A stretch of 56,970 bases of DNA from a virus. A model generated the notes under the pieces. The model did no database searches. It was given only the letters and a program-made list of their open reading frames with translations, and was not told the origin of the DNA. Position numbers and translations under genes: made by a program. Below are positions 3,093 to 11,954 of the stretch, piece by piece. The stretch is from positions 1 through 56,970 of IMG/VR virus record IMGVR_UViG_3300042446_000561. One strand, written 5' to 3'. Position 1 is the first letter of the stretch. Each line of letters opens with the position of its first letter.

Positions 3093-6000
3093 TTAACCTT
3101 GTAGTTGTAATAACTCTTTCGACATATTAGCGTGTTTTGTCATACCATCAACTAATAATCCTAATTTTTGTACCTTTTCTGCAAGTAATGATGCAATTAT
3201 TGTAGCCGATCCGTCATCTTGATTCGGCATATCTAATGGTATTGACTTGCCATCAGGTAAAGGTACAACAGCTTCGTCGCCGTGTAGCATTGCTTGATAC
3301 CCATCTTTAGGTCCAGTCAATACACCACCTAACTGAGCCGATTGCATTTTTTTACCTTCTGCACCTTCGATAGGCGCTGCTGCTACAGATGCAGCAGGAA
3401 TTTCAGCAGCGGCTGTTCCCACTGGTGCAGTTGCAGATGCCGTCTGAGTAGCTGCTCCCCCACCTTTTTTCATAAATGACAAATCAGCTACTTTTTCTGA
3501 GCCAAATTGACCTGTTTCCAAATTTCTTGCGTATGCGTCTTTCTTTCGTTGCTCTGTTACTGCATTTGAATTACCAATACTTCGTGCTACCTGTGTATAT
3601 GGATCTGCACCTGGATTTCGTTTCATTCCATCTAGCATCATCATAACCGCAATTTTAGCGGCAATTTTTGGATCATTGGCTAAATCTGGATTTCCAACTA
3701 GGTCTATGCCTAATTTTTCGCCGTATTTTTTATAATTTGTTTTAAAAGTAATACCAATAAATCCACGACCGCGATATTTGTATCCATCCCCAGGTTGGTC
3801 ATTGCCATAACCCTTAAACGCAGGATTTTTGTCACCATACACATAGTCAAAGAATTTTACAGGATCTGCTTTTAATGCAGTCAACTCATCATCTGGCATT
3901 TTACCAAAAATAGATCCTGCTCCAAATGATTTTCTAATATTTTCGTTACTAGTATTTTGGTAACCAATCTCTGATTGCATTTTAAAACCAGACTCTCCTT
4001 CGGCAGCAGCAGCCATAGAGGCTCTTATTTTAGGATCAGTAACTCCTAACTCGTTCATTGCTTGTAACAATAGTTGTTGATTCTGACCAACAGTAGTAGG
4101 GCCAGTGCCCTCTGCTAATCCGCCTGCTTTTTCTGTTTCTGCTGTACCGCCAGCTACACTACCAGTACCTCCTGCATTAAGTTTCATAGCATTAGCAGCA
4201 CTACCACCTGGGCTACCACTAGGAGTACCTTCTGCTGCACCTGGGCTACCGCCAGCACTACCACCGGCACTGCCACCTGGGCTACCGCCAGCACTGCCAC
4301 CACTACTACCGCTACTGCCACCAGCACTGCCACCGCTACTGCCGCTACTGCCACCGCTACTGCCGCTACTGCCACCAGCACTACTACCAACCATGTTATT
4401 CAACATAGCCTTACTTCTGTTTAATAAAGAATTTGTGCCAGTTAATTTGCCTGAAGAATCTGCACCACTGCTACCAGTAGAACGTAATTCTAACATAGCA
4501 CTCAATGTCTCGAAAGATTTTTGTGTAGGATTAATGCCTTTTGAAACTATTCTAGTAGTTAATTCAGTAATACTGTTTAATTTAGCAGAGTTTATTTCTA
4601 AACTTTTATCAGCATCACTTTTTGCTAACTGTTGATTGGCTAATTGTTCTTTGCTTGTTTTAGCAGTAGTAGTTGTATAATTATTTTGTAATATACCTGC
4701 TCTCGATAATTCATTCGATATTACCTTGAAAGGATTAACAAACCATACAGAGCCATTTTCTTTATTAGAGTTAGGTTTTTCTGTAGGTTGATTGGCAAAT
4801 GCGGATCTAGTAGTAGCCATACCAGAAGGAATTTCCGATAATGTTTGTGTTATTCCTGTATTTCTATCTCTGTTTGTAGTATTTGTAGTATTTGTAGTAT
4901 TTGTAGTATTTCTAGCAGCATTAGAGTTAGGTTTTTCTGTAGGTTGATTGGCAAATGCGGATCTAGTAGTAGCCATACCAGAAGGAATTTCCGATAGTGT
5001 TTGTGTTATTCCTGTATTTCTATCTCTGTTTGTAGTATTTGTAGTATTTCTAGCAGCGGTAGTAGCAGTAGCAGCAATAGCAGCAATAGGAACCGCAGCA
5101 GTAGCAGCAGTAGCAGCAATAGGAACCGCAGCGGTAGTAGCAGTAGTAGCAGCGGTAGTAGCAGCAGCGGTAGTAGCAGTAGCATTTCTACTCATACCTC
5201 TAGTATTAGTATCACTGCCCGTCGATCTACCAGGCATAACTCTAGCATTTTCATCTCCGGCACCGCTTGATTTTCCAAAACCAAATAATCCCCTGGCTTT
5301 ATCCCATAACGTAGTTCCGCCACCTGCCTGTCCTTCTTTACCTGCTGCTTGCCCTGCCACACCTGCTGTTTGTTGGGCTAACCCCGATATTAATTTAAGG
5401 GCTGATGTTGCAGGACCAATACCTTTATTAATCACTGCGTCTGCAGATTGTGTTGCATTGCGTTGAGCATTTTTTATCGCAGCCATTCTAGCAGCATTTG
5501 GATCTGCTGCACCTGTTTTTTGTGCTTCTTGGTCTGCTATAGCTTTAGCATTGGTTGCCACATAATCTTTTGTGCTAATAGCACTTAAAGCCATAATGCC
5601 TGTTACTGGCCCCATCAATCGTTCCATCTCACCAGCTTGTGCTGTTCCGAGATTGTTTTCCATTGTAGTAGTAGCTTCTTTACCTAAACTATCAAAAAGT
5701 ACATTGGCGTTCTTTTCCCCCGCTTGAATTTGTTTAACTAGATTAGGGAATGCTCGATTAAATTTAACAAATGCAGGGTCATTAACAGCATTTGATAATA
5801 CCATTGCCAATCCATCAGATTGTGATTCTGCACCAGCGGCTGTCATCATCGACATTAAATCTCGATTACGATTAAGTTCCGCTTCTGCTTCTTTTGAACC
5901 TACTCCACCAGCATCTACTTTTCGTTGCAATTCTACTTGATTGGCATTAAATTGCTCTAGACGCATAGCTTTTGCATAAGCTTCGTTTTGTCTTTCAGCA

Positions 6001-6764
6001 TTTAATCCAGTTAATTTAGCTAATCGATCTTGTTCAAAGATATATTTTGTAGTGCCAGCTGTAAGTTCTGCTGTGGTTTTTATTTTCGAAGAACCATTTA
6101 ATTGTTGGAATTTTAAATAATTTGCAGAACCTTCTGTAATGTCAGTTATAGACATACCCATATTTGAAAACTGGGTCATCAAACTTGTAGTCGTTAACGC
6201 ACGACTAACTTCAGTAAATCCTTTAAGTCCATCAGCAGCAGTGCCGCCTAATGCTACTAATGTAGTAGCATTTTTTTTCATTAATGATGTAAATTCACCA
6301 ATTTCAGATACAGTAAATCCAGCTGCTTGGAGATTTTTAAAAGTAGAATCCATACCAACTACAAGTCCCGAACGACTCATACTTTGATAATTTTTAAATA
6401 TTTCGTCGCCTTGTTTCATTGAGGCGGCAAAATATTTCCCTGTAAATTCTGCTACTCTTTTAGCAGCTCCTCCGAAAAATGGAAGTTTTGATGCCCATGC
6501 ACCTAAAGCATCAGCACCTTTTTCAACCACATCGGTATAAACACTAAGCCCTTCTTCGCCTTGCGATAACCTATCAGCTGTTTTAATAGTTGCATCTTTT
6601 AAATCATTAACTTTTTTATGCAATGAATCAGAATAATCTTTAATGCCAATTGCAGCATCGCGCATATCCTTTGCTAATGCCGCGGTTACTGGTTTGCCAC
6701 TGGCTAATGCAGCATTGTATCTATTGACAATAGCTTGTGCTTCTTCCGGAGTAAATTTTGCCAT
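3093..6764 (-). CDS. tape-measure-like tail protein with GH19-type lysozyme/chitinase domain
   Basis: 1223 residues and paralogous to the gene just upstream (6775-9879): the N-terminal 450 residues align (for example RSGL-V-GM, FKNLQAAG, MGMSITDI against MGMQIPQI). The middle is low complexity: Thr/Ala/Asn runs, a duplicated block of about 50 residues, and Ser/Gly/Ala repeats. Residues about 885-1060 form a GH19-like hydrolase domain. The segment AEGESGF places a candidate catalytic Glu near residue 924, and GDGYKYRGRGFIGIT is the typical GH19 core motif. The C-terminus carries LGGVLTGPKDGYQAMLHG-EAVVPLP, a motif common in tape-measure proteins. I infer an extended internal tail protein that delivers a glycan-cleaving activity to the cell wall. 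No Shine-Dalgarno sequence is visible; the preceding stop is 10 nt upstream. Confidence 0.72.
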   Translation of the reverse strand: MAKFTPEEAQAIVNRYNAALASGKPVTAALAKDMRDAAIGIKDYSDSLHKKVNDLKDATIKTADRLSQGEEGLSVYTDVVEKGADALGAWASKLPFFGGAAKRVAEFTGKYFAASMKQGDEIFKNYQSMSRSGLVVGMDSTFKNLQAAGFTVSEIGEFTSLMKKNATTLVALGGTAADGLKGFTEVSRALTTTSLMTQFSNMGMSITDITEGSANYLKFQQLNGSSKIKTTAELTAGTTKYIFEQDRLAKLTGLNAERQNEAYAKAMRLEQFNANQVELQRKVDAGGVGSKEAEAELNRNRDLMSMMTAAGAESQSDGLAMVLSNAVNDPAFVKFNRAFPNLVKQIQAGEKNANVLFDSLGKEATTTMENNLGTAQAGEMERLMGPVTGIMALSAISTKDYVATNAKAIADQEAQKTGAADPNAARMAAIKNAQRNATQSADAVINKGIGPATSALKLISGLAQQTAGVAGQAAGKEGQAGGGTTLWDKARGLFGFGKSSGAGDENARVMPGRSTGSDTNTRGMSRNATATTAAATTAATTATTAAVPIAATAATAAVPIAAIAATATTAARNTTNTTNRDRNTGITQTLSEIPSGMATTRSAFANQPTEKPNSNAARNTTNTTNTTNTTNRDRNTGITQTLSEIPSGMATTRSAFANQPTEKPNSNKENGSVWFVNPFKVISNELSRAGILQNNYTTTTAKTSKEQLANQQLAKSDADKSLEINSAKLNSITELTTRIVSKGINPTQKSFETLSAMLELRSTGSSGADSSGKLTGTNSLLNRSKAMLNNMVGSSAGGSSGSSGGSSGSSGGSAGGSSGSSGGSAGGSPGGSAGGSAGGSPGAAEGTPSGSPGGSAANAMKLNAGGTGSVAGGTAETEKAGGLAEGTGPTTVGQNQQLLLQAMNELGVTDPKIRASMAAAAEGESGFKMQSEIGYQNTSNENIRKSFGAGSIFGKMPDDELTALKADPVKFFDYVYGDKNPAFKGYGNDQPGDGYKYRGRGFIGITFKTNYKKYGEKLGIDLVGNPDLANDPKIAAKIAVMMMLDGMKRNPGADPYTQVARSIGNSNAVTEQRKKDAYARNLETGQFGSEKVADLSFMKKGGGAATQTASATAPVGTAAAEIPAASVAAAPIEGAEGKKMQSAQLGGVLTGPKDGYQAMLHGDEAVVPLPDGKSIPLDMPNQDDGSATIIASLLAEKVQKLGLLVDGMTKHANMSKELLQLQG
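4190..4390 (-). repeat. Ser/Gly/Ala-coding low-complexity run
   Basis: Within the GH19-bearing tail protein, imperfect tandem codon repeats encode GGSSGSSGGSAGGSPGGS-type sequence for about 65 residues just before the enzyme domain. It is probably a flexible linker. Short tandem units like this readily change length by slippage. Confidence 0.8.
4764..5060 (-). repeat. 156-nt-period direct duplication inside tail protein gene
   Basis: Two near-identical copies start at 4764 and 4920 and encode NRDRNTGITQTLSEIPSG followed by MATTRSAFANQPTEKPNSN. I noticed one substitution (gataatg/gatagtg), and the copies differ in the number of Asn-Thr-Thr triplets (four against two). In-frame and very similar, so a recent tandem duplication. 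Confidence 0.85.
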
Positions 6765-6774
6765 TTATAAAGTA

Positions 6775-9700
6775 TTAACCTTGATTTTGTAACATACGAT
6801 CAGTAATATTATTTTGTTTTGTCATAACACTTAGTAAAGAATCTAATTTAGATAATTCTTGTGTCAATAAAGAAATTTGTTCTTCTGCACCGGCGCTGCT
6901 GCCAGTACCGCCGCCTTTAGATTGCACAGGAATAGTTCTGCCATCAGGTAACGGTACAACAGCTTCGTTACCATGTAATAATGCTTGATAACCACTTGTT
7001 GGACCACTTAATATACCACCCATAGCAGCAGATGGCATCGGTGTATCTGTCTTGCCTGCTCTTCGATCAGTAATTAATTGTGTTAAAAACGGAGAATCTC
7101 CTGTAGGTGGCCATTTATAATCACTTCCCCACGCCATCAATCCTGAATGTGAAGTGTCCAAATGAATATGAGCGCCACCAGGAGCACGATATTCTGCTCC
7201 TATGCCATTAAATCCTAAATCAAGAGCTTTAACATATAGTTTATTTCTTTCTGGTTCACTTAATTGATTTGCTCCAAATCCTAAATCAATAGCATCTCCA
7301 GTACCATGATTAGCTGCACCTGGTCTAAATCCGCTAGTAACAGTTAATTTTTTACCAAGAACTGATTCTATCGCTGCTTTTTTAGCTAATACGTCAGGTT
7401 TAACACCCTCTTCTTTACCAGTACCACCGCCACTGCCAGCCGCCGGAGTAGCTGCACTTTTTGCTTCTGCTGCTGACGGAGGGGAACCTGACGGCACTTG
7501 CTCAGTAGGCGAAGTATCTTTTGGTTTTTGAGCTCCGTTTGGAGCACCTCCTGCTGCACCCCCTGCTGCACCCCCGCTAGTTCCTCCTGATGATGTAGTA
7601 GCAGTAGGACTAAATCCTAAAGTTTGTTTAATTTTATCTATAGTTGACAACACTAAAGTTTTAGTTTTATCAATTAATCCAACTGTATCTTCTGCTTTCC
7701 CTTCCCCAGTTCCACTTTCAAGCAATTCAGTTAATCTATCAGTAGTTTTAGTTAACAATGTAAAACTTTTAATTACAGGAGTAAACGATGTATTAAGAGT
7801 TTTTGCTAGTGCCTGTGTATTTTCTTTCTGACCTTCGGTTATATCAGAAAATGAATCTGTTAATTCAATTGTAGTACCTTTAGCACCAGTGACCTGTTTT
7901 GCCGACTGTTCCATTACTTTTTGGTAAGCAGCAAGACTTTCTGTTAACTTTGCTACACTAGTTTCACCGGTTTGTTCATATATTGCGTTCTCGGATAAAG
8001 TACGCAGTTGATCCTGTCGATTTCGTGTCTTCTGTGCTACCATACTTGGAGAATCTGTGGGTCTAATAGTTGATTTAACCATTGCGTGAAGTTGATTAAT
8101 TCTTGCATGTAGCTTTTCAATATCAATACCCGCTAATGCCGGATCATTTTTCGGATCTTTAACTAACCCACCATCGGCATACCCTGGTCCAGAACTAATA
8201 CTTCGGTTTAATCCCAATGCCGGATCATTTTTCGGATCTTTAACTAACCCACCATCGACATACCCTGGTCCAGAACTAATACTTCGGTTTAATCCCAATG
8301 CCTTTGTTGTTTCGGCATCTATTACATATTCGCCTTTGTGTACAATACCTGCTGGTTGATATTTGCCACCATCACCAGTATATCCACCTTCTGCAAACCA
8401 GGAAAATGGATTATACCATGAGGATTCAGATTTCCCTCCAATTTTACCTTCTTTGCCAGCTATTTTTCCTAACACTCCGGCTGCATCAGCAGCAACAGTA
8501 GATAATGCTTTGAGAGCAGAAGTCACTGGGCCCATTGCTTTATCAAGTACTTTTGTAGTTGATTGTTCTATATCGCGAGCATTCTGATTTATCTTAACCA
8601 TATCAGCTGTATTTTTATCTTTACCAGCTGCTTGTCCTTCTATTTGCTTACCTGCAGAATTTACAGCATCTACATAGTCTATTCCGCTACTAGATAAGGC
8701 TTTTGAATATTCTCCAAAATTGCCTAAGAATTTATTAAATACCCCGGCTCCTGCTAATCCTTTATAAGTTGTTGTGGTTCTTTGTACATCTTTCATTAAT
8801 GTATTGGTAAATTCACCAATATCAGTACCACCTTGATCTATAAATTGAGCTGTTTGTCCCAATCCTCTTTGAAATACTGCATACCCTTCAGTATTAGTAG
8901 CACCAGCCAAATACATCATGGCATTTTTCTTCATCTCAGGCCCCATCTTGCCTTCGACCATTGTAAGCATTGCTTGATTAGCATCTAGTTTTTTCTGTGC
9001 AGCCGCACCTTCGTCGCCGCCTCTTGCAGCTATTTGTTTTAATTCAAAGGTTTTAGCTGCATATTGCTCAGTAGCCAATGCTTGTTCTTGTATTTTATTT
9101 TGTGAATCTGCACTTAATCCAGTTAATTTGGTTAATTTATCCTGATTAACCATGTACTCCATAGCACCTTGCGTTACTGCCTTGGTATCATTTGAAACTG
9201 CTTGTCCACTTAATTGCTGTAGCCTTACATAATTTGCAATACCCTCATTAATTTGTGGTATTTGCATACCCATATTCAGCAGCTGAGTGCCTAACCCTGA
9301 CCCTACAATTTCCTTAGATATTTTAGAAAATCTAGTAAGCCCTTCTTGTGCAGTCCCACCCATATTGGCCAATACGGTGGAATTTTGTTTCATCAGGTCG
9401 CCATATGCCCCGATTTCCTTCATTGTATAACCAGCAGCCTGCAAATTCTTAAATGCGTCGTTCATGCCGGTAGCTAGTCCTGAACGACTTAAATCTTGAT
9501 AAAGTTTAAATTGTTGATCAGCTAATGTGGCTACTCTAGTTGCTACTTCAGCTAATACTTCAGCTGTTTTTCCCAGTACATTACTGCCACTTTTAGCGTC
9601 TTTATTCCAATCTGAAAATACTTTTGCACCGGATTTGATAGTATCGTTATAAACTGCGGCCCCAGATTCCCCATCTATTAGGCTTTTGACCAGTCCGCCC

Positions 9701-9879
9701 ATGCTGGCTGTTAATGCTGCTTTGCTAGCTCTTAACTGTGCTGAATACCCTTTGATACCTACAGAGGCGTCTTTTATCGAATCTCTAAGTTCTTCGGTGA
9801 TTGGTATTCCGCTAGCCAGTGCTTGATTGTATTCATCAGTTCGGGCCTGAATTTCTTCCGGTGTCATGTTTTGTGGCAT
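6775..9879 (-). CDS. tape-measure-like tail protein with C-terminal M15-type peptidase domain
   Basis: 1034 residues. The N-terminal half is helical and paralogous to the downstream gene. Around residues 490-520 is [24 protein letters not shown], a motif frequent in tail tape-measure proteins. Residues about 828-925 form an M15/D-Ala-D-Ala-carboxypeptidase-like zinc peptidase domain: [18 protein letters not shown] (candidate ligands His858 and Asp865) and HIHLD (His906). The C-terminus has [25 protein letters not shown]. I infer a tail-interior protein that sets or fills the tail and carries a peptide-cross-link-cleaving enzyme. A TATAAATA box lies only 6 nt before the first ATG; the second ATG (residue 5, MTPEE) could be the real start if a leader is needed. 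The gene is divergent from the gp26-like gene, 27 bp away. Confidence 0.75.
   Translation of the reverse strand: [1034 protein letters not shown]
8135..8296 (-). repeat. 81-bp tandem duplication in tape-measure-like gene
   Basis: Two adjacent 81-bp copies (8135-8215 and 8216-8296) differ at a single base, which changes GYVDGG to GYADGG. Each encodes 27 residues including [13 protein letters not shown] and [13 protein letters not shown]. The copies lie just after the Gly-rich tape-measure motif and keep the frame, so this is a very recent duplication. Confidence 0.92.
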
Positions 9880-9906: not shown

Positions 9907-10737
9907 ATGAATCCATTGACTCAATATTTTAGACAACCTTCAATTTATATTAAATTGCCTAGCCAAGGCAATTACTACCCTGCGGGAGCTATCGAAATGC
10001 CACAAAATGGCGAGCTTCCTGTATTGCCCATGACGGCAATAGATGAAATTACATATCGTACACCTGATGCATTATTCAGTGGACAAGCAGTTATTAATGT
10101 TATACAAAGCTGTATTCCCGCTATCAAAGATGCATGGGCAATCCCATCAATTGATATTGATACCATATTAGTAGCTATACGTATTGCCAGCTACGGTCAT
10201 GAAATGACTTTTGCCACAGTTTGCCCACATTGCCAAAATGATGACGAATATGCTGTTGATTTACGTACTGTACTTGAGCAAATGAAAACCCCTGATTATT
10301 CAGATCCAGTTAAACAAGGCGATATCGAAATTTACTTTAGACCAATGACTTATAAAAATTTGTCTGATAACAATAAAATTCAATTTGACGAACAACGTAT
10401 TTTTCAATCGTTGCCTGATGACAAAGCCGTAGATAATGTTCAATTATCAGCTATGTCAGCAGCATTACAGCGCATGACTGAGATGACTGTATCTGCACTA
10501 AGTCAAAGTATTTTAACCATTAAAACTCCTAGCGCCATGGTTACAGAACAAGAATATATTAGCGAATTTATGAAAAATTGTGATAGTGGATTGTTCAATC
10601 GTATTCAAACTTATGTAGTCGATCATAAATCTGAAGCAGAGATGAAACCTATTACAATTAAATGTAATAAATGTCAAACTAATTACTTACAATCTATTAC
10701 GTTGGATATGTCGAATTTTTTCGAGCGCGCCTCCTAA
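9907..10737 (+). CDS. 26: baseplate hub/tape-measure chaperone protein, gp26-like
   Basis: 276 residues (T4 gp26 has 208). It matches the T4-type base-plate protein family by its opening NPLTQYFRQPSIYIKLPSQGNYYP, by MTAIDEITYRTPDALFSGQAV, and by a central VCPHCQNDDEYAVDL with a second CNKCQTNY near the C-terminus; the four cysteines could form a zinc knuckle. The start has AAGGA 9 nt upstream. In T4, gp26 and gp51 are needed to assemble the hub. Here the gene lies back to back with the tape-measure-like genes, which fits a chaperone role. It ends at a TAA 13 nt after a T-TTT-TTC slippery heptamer, and the next frame (-1) stays open into a gp51-like sequence, so a 348-residue frameshift product is likely. 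Confidence 0.85.
   Translation: MNPLTQYFRQPSIYIKLPSQGNYYPAGAIEMPQNGELPVLPMTAIDEITYRTPDALFSGQAVINVIQSCIPAIKDAWAIPSIDIDTILVAIRIASYGHEMTFATVCPHCQNDDEYAVDLRTVLEQMKTPDYSDPVKQGDIEIYFRPMTYKNLSDNNKIQFDEQRIFQSLPDDKAVDNVQLSAMSAALQRMTEMTVSALSQSILTIKTPSAMVTEQEYISEFMKNCDSGLFNRIQTYVVDHKSEAEMKPITIKCNKCQTNYLQSITLDMSNFFERAS
10716..10722 (+). promoter_or_regulatory. candidate -1 programmed frameshift site (T TTT TTC)
   Basis: In the gp26 frame the codons read AAT TTT TTC, giving the canonical X-XXY-YYZ heptamer TTTTTTC. A -1 slip continues CGA GCG CGC CTC CTA into a frame open to the stop at 10950-10952, adding 76 residues. That frame has no ATG, GTG or TTG between its upstream stop (near 10678) and the ATG at 10776, and no ribosome site precedes that ATG. 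Only a short GC-rich patch is visible downstream, with no obvious pseudoknot. Confidence 0.6.
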
Positions 10738-10775
10738 TATTAGATCCTGAACGTGTTGCTACTTACATAGACAAC

Positions 10776-10952
10776 ATGGATAAAGAGATCAATGATATTA
10801 GACTTGAGGCGTTACGTATGTCTTGGTACATGAGAGGGGGATTACCTTATGATCAAGCCTTACAACTCAGTGTCGCTGAAAGAAAAATAATCAGTGATAT
10901 CATCAAAGATAATATGGAGACAACTAAGAAAAGTGGTTTGCCTTTCTTTTAA
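10776..10952 (+). CDS. gp51-like baseplate hub assembly reading frame (58 residues from ATG, probably expressed by frameshift)
   Basis: From its first ATG this encodes 58 residues containing LRMSWYMRGGLPYDQALQLS and ending DNMETTKKSGLPFF. The WYMRGG/TKK-G-PFF pattern is what I know from the short protein that follows gp26 in T4-like phages of aquatic hosts; the match to T4 gp51 itself (249 residues) is only positional. The same frame codes sensibly upstream of the ATG (LLILDPERVATYIDNM), which suggests it is the tail of a gp26 frameshift fusion and not a free-standing gene. No Shine-Dalgarno sequence precedes the ATG. Confidence 0.7.
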   Translation: MDKEINDIRLEALRMSWYMRGGLPYDQALQLSVAERKIISDIIKDNMETTKKSGLPFF

Positions 10953-11019
10953 GTTTTTTGTTTTTTCCATGACCCTCCTTAAGGTTCTGAATGATTACTT
11001 TATATTTCTTTTTGATTTA

Positions 11020-11505
11020 ACAGATTAGCTGCGCTAATCCAAGACTCGCATACTGCTCGTCTTATTGTTTTAAGTAGTTGCTTTTAAATACTATTCGTCT
11101 AGAACTAATGTCATAATTCACCGTAAGCACGGTGAAAAAAATGACCTCTTCGTCTGAGTCCGCAGTCATTTATTATAAAGAGATTGTGCTTTCACACTCG
11201 GAGGCGGTTGACCTGTACCCCCTACTCTAGCTTCACATATCAACGGAACCCTAGTAACCCCATAATAAATCAAAGTCCTATAAGCATGGGTCGTATCTTT
11301 TTCACGTTGCCCAAACCATTTGTTGCCTTAAGTTGGCTTTTGCCTTTGACACCCGAGTAGGCTTGCGCCTCTTCTATCCGAATTGGGTTTCTCACCAATC
11401 CTCAACGGGGATCGAGCAGCCTCGATCAAACGCTGTCAGTGTGATGCCTCCCAGAGTTTCACTGGTTCTGACTAATAGTGTCGGGCTTCCCCTAACTTAG
11501 TCTGT
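11020..11505. ncRNA. candidate structured non-coding RNA or ribozyme remnant
   Basis: The stretch 10953-11525 has no gene. Within it the DNA is visibly richer in G+C than its surroundings and dense in stem-loops: 11023-11039 (7 bp, 3-nt loop), 11117-11136 (8 bp, AAGC tetraloop, with an outer 5-bp stem 11110-11114/11141-11145), 11355-11374 (8 bp with one mismatch, TTGC loop), 11382-11399, 11410-11427 (7 bp, CAGC tetraloop), 11451-11465, and GACTAA/TTAGTC at 11470-11475/11497-11502. GACAC (11348-11352) can pair with GTGTC (11478-11482), which would make a pseudoknot with the last stem. All six frames are broken by stops. It lies between convergent operons next to a GIY-YIG gene. The strand is not settled and no known family is recognised. 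Confidence 0.5.
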
Positions 11506-11525
11506 CGATGCCTATCTAAGATGAT

Positions 11526-11954
11526 TTAAATTTTGTTTTTGATGTGACTACCATGTATACGGCAAACTATTTGTCCGTTATAGTAATCGTCACTTTCTAA
11601 TACACGATGCTTAAATTGTTCACGGGCTTCAATATAACTGCATTCCGATTTGGTGTTGCAATAATATAATATTTGCCTAGTGAAATTTTCGATGCCTAAC
11701 TGTTCGATGTCTTTATTTAATTCTATGCTGCTGCCGGTGTACTGTTGCCAGTCTGATTCCACTTTACTTTTGATTCTCTTACGTTTTTTGGTGCCGTTCT
11801 TAAGTTTTACTATTTTATATGTTGTTTTACTAAATTTTGATAGTTTTTTTCCGATATATTTTCTGCCGGATATGTTGTTTGTAATGCAATAAACAAATCC
11901 AGCACAATCTTCCGGTAGTATTTCAACATGAGTGTTTTCAAAAAGCCATGACAT
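11526..11954 (-). CDS. GIY-YIG endonuclease (Seg/homing type)
   Basis: 142 residues. The N-terminus has GFVYCI (residues 19-24) and KYIGKK (32-37), the two strands that name the GIY-YIG fold. A Lys/Arg-rich loop follows, and later YIEAREQFKHRVLESDDYYN, which fits the conserved Glu/Asn part of the domain. No separate DNA-binding domain is evident, as in T4 seg enzymes. Such enzymes cut DNA at a target and spread their own gene into related phages. It follows the gp46 gene in the same direction and lies next to the stem-loop-rich stretch 11020-11505, so it may mobilise that element (inference). No good ribosome site precedes the ATG. Confidence 0.78.
   Translation of the reverse strand: MSWLFENTHVEILPEDCAGFVYCITNNISGRKYIGKKLSKFSKTTYKIVKLKNGTKKRKRIKSKVESDWQQYTGSSIELNKDIEQLGIENFTRQILYYCNTKSECSYIEAREQFKHRVLESDDYYNGQIVCRIHGSHIKNKI

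Follow-up and report, generated by a model that had tools for sequence, protein, structure and literature searches.

How are a gp26-type phage gene and the reading frame that runs on behind it, one base out of register, expressed? This question is raised by IMG/VR virus record IMGVR_UViG_3300042446_000561, positions 1 to 56,970 of which (56,970 nucleotides, hereafter the window) were analysed. The gp26-type open reading frame (ORF) starts at ATG 9907 and stops at TAA 10735–10737, giving 276 aa; the encoded protein matches PF12322 with 54.5 bits, against a curated cut-off of 24.5, and the PHROG 150 "baseplate hub" profile at 1.9e-16. Near its end the codons read AAT TTT TTC GAG CGC GCC TCC TAA, where 12 nt separate the heptamer T TTT TTC from the stop. 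In the −1 frame translation could continue from the heptamer as far as TAA 10950–10952, so that a fusion of 272 + 76 = 348 aa is predicted. The initial annotation had proposed that a −1 programmed frameshift joins the gp26-type and downstream products. Codon reading bears out its in-frame heptamer at 10716–10722, its open −1 frame to 10952 and its protein lengths, and the frameshift itself is supported by conservation, by the coding character of the extension and by a stem. Frameshifting of −1 at T TTT TTC very likely yields products of 276 and 348 aa, and we are highly confident in the prediction that one gene encodes two tail assembly chaperones, a short one ended by the normal stop and a long one made by a stem-aided −1 slip.

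The heptamer is conserved well beyond the window. A gp26 protein search found 67 IMG/VR loci with 34–100% identity, in all of which TTTTTTC lies in frame, 10–19 nt upstream of the gp26 stop, and in those gp26-first loci whose contigs are long enough the −1 frame stays open for 70–75 codons beyond that stop. Relatives of the gene occur in jumbo phages and in IMG/VR contigs of up to 357 kb. Isolates carrying TTTTTTC are Atu_ph07, Phosso, PA5oct, RaK2, 121Q, Sf-FS3, Rhizobium IC12, Aeromonas phiAS5, SNUABM_19, XaC1, CBB, Munch, GAP32, Vibrio 2.275.O, SCTP-2 and XbC2, while Rhizobium RL38J1 has TTTTTTG and XacN1 has TTTTTTT. A second search found TTTTTTC in every distinct cyanophage-type locus. 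In the pooled set of 115 distinct loci, which form 34 clusters at 70% identity, the exact heptamer is present in 113 and the remaining two have TTTTTTG and TTTTTTT; the preceding codon is NNT (N, any base) throughout. Other Phe-Phe pairs in the same genes are never coded T-TTT-TTC (0/78), and from codon usage about 8% would be expected in each lineage (0.40 × 0.71 × 0.29), compared with the 32 of 34 clusters observed. Because the pooled loci had been chosen by gp26, extension-first sampling was added, in which loci were found by the motif W-Y-M-R-G-G alone, 36 codons downstream. TTTTTTC stands at the junction in all 70 distinct loci so obtained, the gp26 frame being offset, and an in-frame fusion of gp26 and extension occurs in none of the 70. 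Heptamer and open −1 frame are therefore kept in relatives (67/67, 113/115 and 70/70 loci), as an alignment proposed by the initial annotation was meant to reveal, and among the sampled relatives of the window lineage there is neither a fused gene nor an ATG with a ribosome site in place of the slippery site. The in-frame heptamer with its open −1 frame is confirmed as real and is far beyond chance. One relative of the gene, in the 484-kb uncultured phage LR756508 (1201–1962), has neither TTTTTTC nor a recognisable −1 extension.

The extension behaves as coding sequence. For the window clade its ratio of nonsynonymous to synonymous substitution rates (dN/dS) is 0.097, and for the cyanophage type 0.045; most substitutions affect the third position of −1-frame codons, both other frames contain stops, and purifying selection acts on both sides of the junction. 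The window extension is homologous to those of RaK2, 121Q and others (hhalign E 9e-19), matches that of Atu_ph07 (tblastn 1e-9) and is modelled by AlphaFold as all-helical, with a predicted local distance difference test score (pLDDT) of 85.6. Directly after the slip come the conserved residues FFRxRLL. The −1 ORF of PA5oct contains no ATG, GTG or TTG anywhere, and 29 of the 70 extension-first loci have no NTG within its first 20 codons; a start codon is thus wanting in a large share of loci, though not in all; the cyanophage types have an early ATG. The conservation of FFRxRLL despite the lack of a start codon is hard to explain without a change of frame.

These data bear on the strongest rival explanation, that the extension is a separate small gene, not fused to gp26, whose translation begins internally or by re-initiation at a −1-frame ATG or TTG. 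The window itself offers a candidate start. The initial annotation had rightly noted that the first −1-frame ATG (10776) lacks a ribosome site, but it missed a second ATG at 10818, in GAGGCGTTACGT-ATG at 10806–10820 in the −1 frame, where a Shine-Dalgarno (SD)-like GAGG lies 8 nt upstream. This could start a 44-aa C-terminal fragment of the extension, and the same GAGG bases double as the 3′ arm of the stem described below. In the cyanophage types an ATG lies a few codons from the gp26 stop and the extension is annotated as a "gp51" of its own. The distant Pseudomonas phage Cygsa01 (2572–3482) has no slippery site, and its gp51-like ORF overlaps the gp26 stop as TAATG, which points to re-initiation as a third route to the extension domain. 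This explanation is nevertheless very unlikely: the −1 frame is conserved as protein (FFRARLL) ahead of any start codon, PA5oct and the 29 loci mentioned above have no suitable start, and the invariant nucleotide heptamer and the stem would be left unexplained.

The signal does not end with the heptamer. The initial annotation had identified the slippery site correctly but had overlooked a downstream stem-loop as part of it. Positions 10723–10820 of the window fold at −32.5 kcal/mol (z −5.98, 0/200 shuffles), with a 4-nt spacer between heptamer and stem and with the gp26 stop inside the stem. One representative per cluster was then examined for the best perfect helix with a 5′ arm starting 4–9 nt past the heptamer. 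The stem reaches p < 0.1 in 24 of the 34 lineages, and the combined p is about 1e-21, both against dinucleotide shuffles and against shuffles that preserve the −1 protein (synonymous-codon null); at eight control positions, upstream and downstream, no enrichment was found. Loop length and 3′ partner vary by lineage, the helix being for example 11 bp in one lineage (L046) and 10 bp in Atu_ph07. Rfam gave no match.

The position of the stem also bears on transcriptional slippage, in which some mRNAs would have the frames fused because RNA polymerase added or dropped a U within the T6 run. All loci do have a run of six T. Six T are, however, short for efficient transcriptional slippage, the run nearly always ends in C and keeps the codon phase X XXY YYZ, and the stem stands at a ribosome-stalling distance, which transcription does not need; this explanation is most improbable. 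Homopolymer runs are prone to error, but that sequencing or assembly error or gene decay split a truly continuous gene has negligible probability and is refuted by conservation, as the same junction recurs across 115 distinct loci, as well as in the genomes of 18 named phage isolates, and both of its sides are under purifying selection.

Programmed −1 frameshifting would proceed as follows. Most ribosomes would stop at 10735 and release the short form of 276 aa, the equivalent of T4 gp26 and lambda gpG. The stem-loop 4 nt past the heptamer would hold up a minority of ribosomes, which may then slip back by one base, tRNA-Phe re-pairing from TTT TTC to TTT TTT. The slipped ribosomes would read on to 10952 and add a small helical domain, giving the 348-aa long form, which by position would be the equivalent of T4 gp51 and lambda gpGT. 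Together the two forms are likely to coat the tape-measure protein and to bring in subunits of the tail tube, in a ratio that the rate of slipping would set. Computation shows the signal and how it is conserved, that the extension is coding, the stem, and that relatives have a single gene copy; the slippage and its rate we infer, as we do, from T4 and lambda, the role in tail assembly and the long/short ratio.

Several observations weigh against this account. The ratio and the chaperone function are drawn by analogy from T4 and lambda, and a fold match to HK97 gp13 (2ob9_A), a chaperone of the same type whose structure has been solved, is only suggestive (Z 5.6 over 100 of its 107 residues, root-mean-square deviation 4.4), with similar Z among many unrelated structures. 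In about 10 of the 34 lineages the stem is not significant. Covariation support for the window stem, from pair counts in 22 close relatives, is mixed: pairs of the outer helix are mostly invariant, seven pairs of the inner helix are changed on both sides but many cells are broken, and a control slid by −3 nearly equals the window structure on the covariation score, so that the window structure is supported by fold energy and position and not by covariation. The joint consensus fold of the window clade and its neighbours is weak (−2 kcal/mol) because the 3′ partner in the neighbouring lineages L027–L029 is GGAGGCC compared with GAGGCG in the window clade. A conserved SD-like stimulator upstream of the heptamer is not enriched (Stouffer p 1.0); in the cyanophage types a GAGGG that encodes Glu-Gly is frequent 9 nt upstream. 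The SD-like GAGG with ATG 10818 might, moreover, also initiate the 44-aa fragment.

The relation to T4 was studied through the gene family. T4 gp26 and gp51 both belong to PF12322/PHROG 150, and BLASTP aligns the two with E 2e-6. T4 gp26 ends just past the residues that match the slip site (GLKEFFELL), and gp51 runs on into a C-terminal part. The cyanophage −1 extension belongs to PHROG 634 "baseplate hub assembly catalyst" (15/15), and hhalign matches it to the C-terminus of gp51 at E 2e-6. For the window-type extension the same comparison (gp51 residues about 180–249, PHROG 634) is not significant (E 0.02–0.2), and the PHROG search with the window protein gave no PHROG 634 match. The label "gp51-like", which the initial annotation gave to the 76-aa extension, thus holds by position and through chains of relatives, but not by significant sequence similarity. 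A single PF12322 copy is present in 12 site-bearing records (ten from phage isolates, two being large contigs of IMG/VR) and also in Cygsa01 with its TAATG restart; T4 has two, the short gp26 and the long gp51. Since T4 gp51 consists of a gp26 domain and a part homologous to the cyanophage extension, T4 encodes the short and the long form in separate genes; elsewhere they are one gene with a frameshift. In a tree of 33 proteins a branch (91/85) sets the two-gene proteins apart as one group, next to which stands phiAS5, a Straboviridae phage of the frameshifting kind. The tree is consistent with frameshifting having given way to duplication once, although its deep branches are not strongly supported. 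On balance we lean towards a frameshift that is ancestral across the T4 superfamily and persists with an unchanged heptamer in the sampled cyanophage, rhizobial and jumbo groups; it would have been replaced once, on the T4 branch, by duplication, gp51 being a hard-wired frameshift product, while the stem position of 4–9 nt was kept and the pairing partner re-evolved in each lineage.

The features of the locus are collected in Table 1. The 27-bp gap between the gp26-type ATG and the tape-measure-like gene on the opposite strand is as the initial annotation described it. The two large tail proteins stand in tandem and have similar N-termini; a GH19 (chitinase/lysozyme-type) domain is found in one and an HxxxxxD...HxH region resembling M15 peptidases in the other, which suggests that cell-wall enzymes are part of these tape-measure-like proteins. 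On the other side, about 570 bp (10953–11525) without a convincing ORF or an Rfam match separate the chaperone gene from a SegE-type GIY-YIG homing endonuclease (11526–11954, minus strand; PF19835, 8e-33), which lies between the chaperone gene and gp46; T4 segE is likewise a few kb from genes 25/26. As regards structure, a PDB sequence search found no relative and Foldseek found nothing significant in the PDB; in BFVD the Foldseek matches are phage baseplate hub proteins. The PA5oct record has electrospray ionisation tandem mass spectrometry (ESI-MS/MS) notes on neighbouring genes and none on the gp26 gene.

Table 1. Features of the frameshift locus and its tail-gene neighbours (window coordinates; TAC, tail assembly chaperone).
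Feature	Position	Strand	Evidence or remark
Second large tail protein, similar N-terminus, GH19 lysozyme-like domain	3093..6764	-	
Tape-measure-like gene, presumed chaperone client (inferred)	6775..9879	-	PHROG 339/1506/21845/24 tail length tape measure, E 1e-8 to 1e-11
gp26-type gene (TAC-N, short form, 276 aa)	9907..10737	+	PF12322 T4_baseplate 1.6e-14; PHROG 150 1.9e-16; AlphaFold model pLDDT 85.5
Slippery heptamer T TTT TTC	10716..10722	+	In frame; kept in 113/115 distinct loci
-1 frame extension, 76 aa past slip + stop	10722..10952	+	Predicted C-terminal domain of long form TAC-NC (348 aa)
4-nt spacer, slippery site to stem	10723..10726	+	
Stimulatory stem-loop (putative)	10727..10812	+	Outer helix 10727-10733/10806-10812; inner helix 10734-10742/10793-10801; apical hairpin

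Frameshifted tail chaperones are known from lambda G/GT and have been proposed for some T4-like phages, and the window adds another case. Possible novelties are how widely the exact heptamer is conserved, the lineage-specific stem and the lack of the joined product in the phage records examined. The annotation of a core tail gene is thereby corrected in most of the large T4-type phages examined, where the long chaperone is missing or split. One frameshifted gene set beside two genes offers a natural comparison for asking why tail assembly needs a fixed short/long ratio, and the independently evolved stems form a set for studying what stimulates bacterial −1 slippage.

Among the closest known systems are the jumbo phages RaK2, 121Q, CBB, PA5oct, Atu_ph07 and Phosso, in which gene, heptamer and −1 extension are the same as in the window, with a structural or tape-measure-like gene on one side in most and gp46 on the other; in their records the extension is a separate short ORF or unlisted, and no joined product is annotated in the stretches examined. 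In Vandenendeviridae/Andersonviridae (Pseudomonas phage Adele), as described in PMC12846349, there is also a conserved poly-T −1 site with an unannotated −1 extension before the tape measure gene, but the phage family is different and the invariant sequence is GTTTTT where the window has TTTTTTC. According to the same paper, Vladimirov 2022 reported that the TAC-N genes of T4-like phages contain poly-T slippery signals, and PMC10885494, citing that work, states that some T4-likes have two separate genes instead, a short one and a long, fused one. The parallel with lambda G/GT drawn by the initial annotation is apt. A 2016 review (PMC5009743) describes the lambda-type chaperone frameshift as widely conserved in long-tailed phages "except T4" and gives a model in which each of the two forms binds the tape measure and the tail tube is recruited through the T part. 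Lambda G/GT is, however, another protein family, whereas the window gene is PF12322 with Cys-rich sites; the window differs further in its heptamer T TTT TTC followed by a strong stem, and in a tape-measure-like gene that lies upstream on the opposite strand. The literature also treats T4 gp26 and gp51 as tail assembly chaperones: papers citing Vladimirov, Gautam and Davidson 2022 report that they were identified there as TAC-N and TAC-NC, and PMC3004832 lists both as hub assembly chaperones, gp51 not being in the particle. They share the Pfam/PHROG family of the window gene, but in T4 there are two divergently placed genes and no heptamer, whereas the window has one gene.
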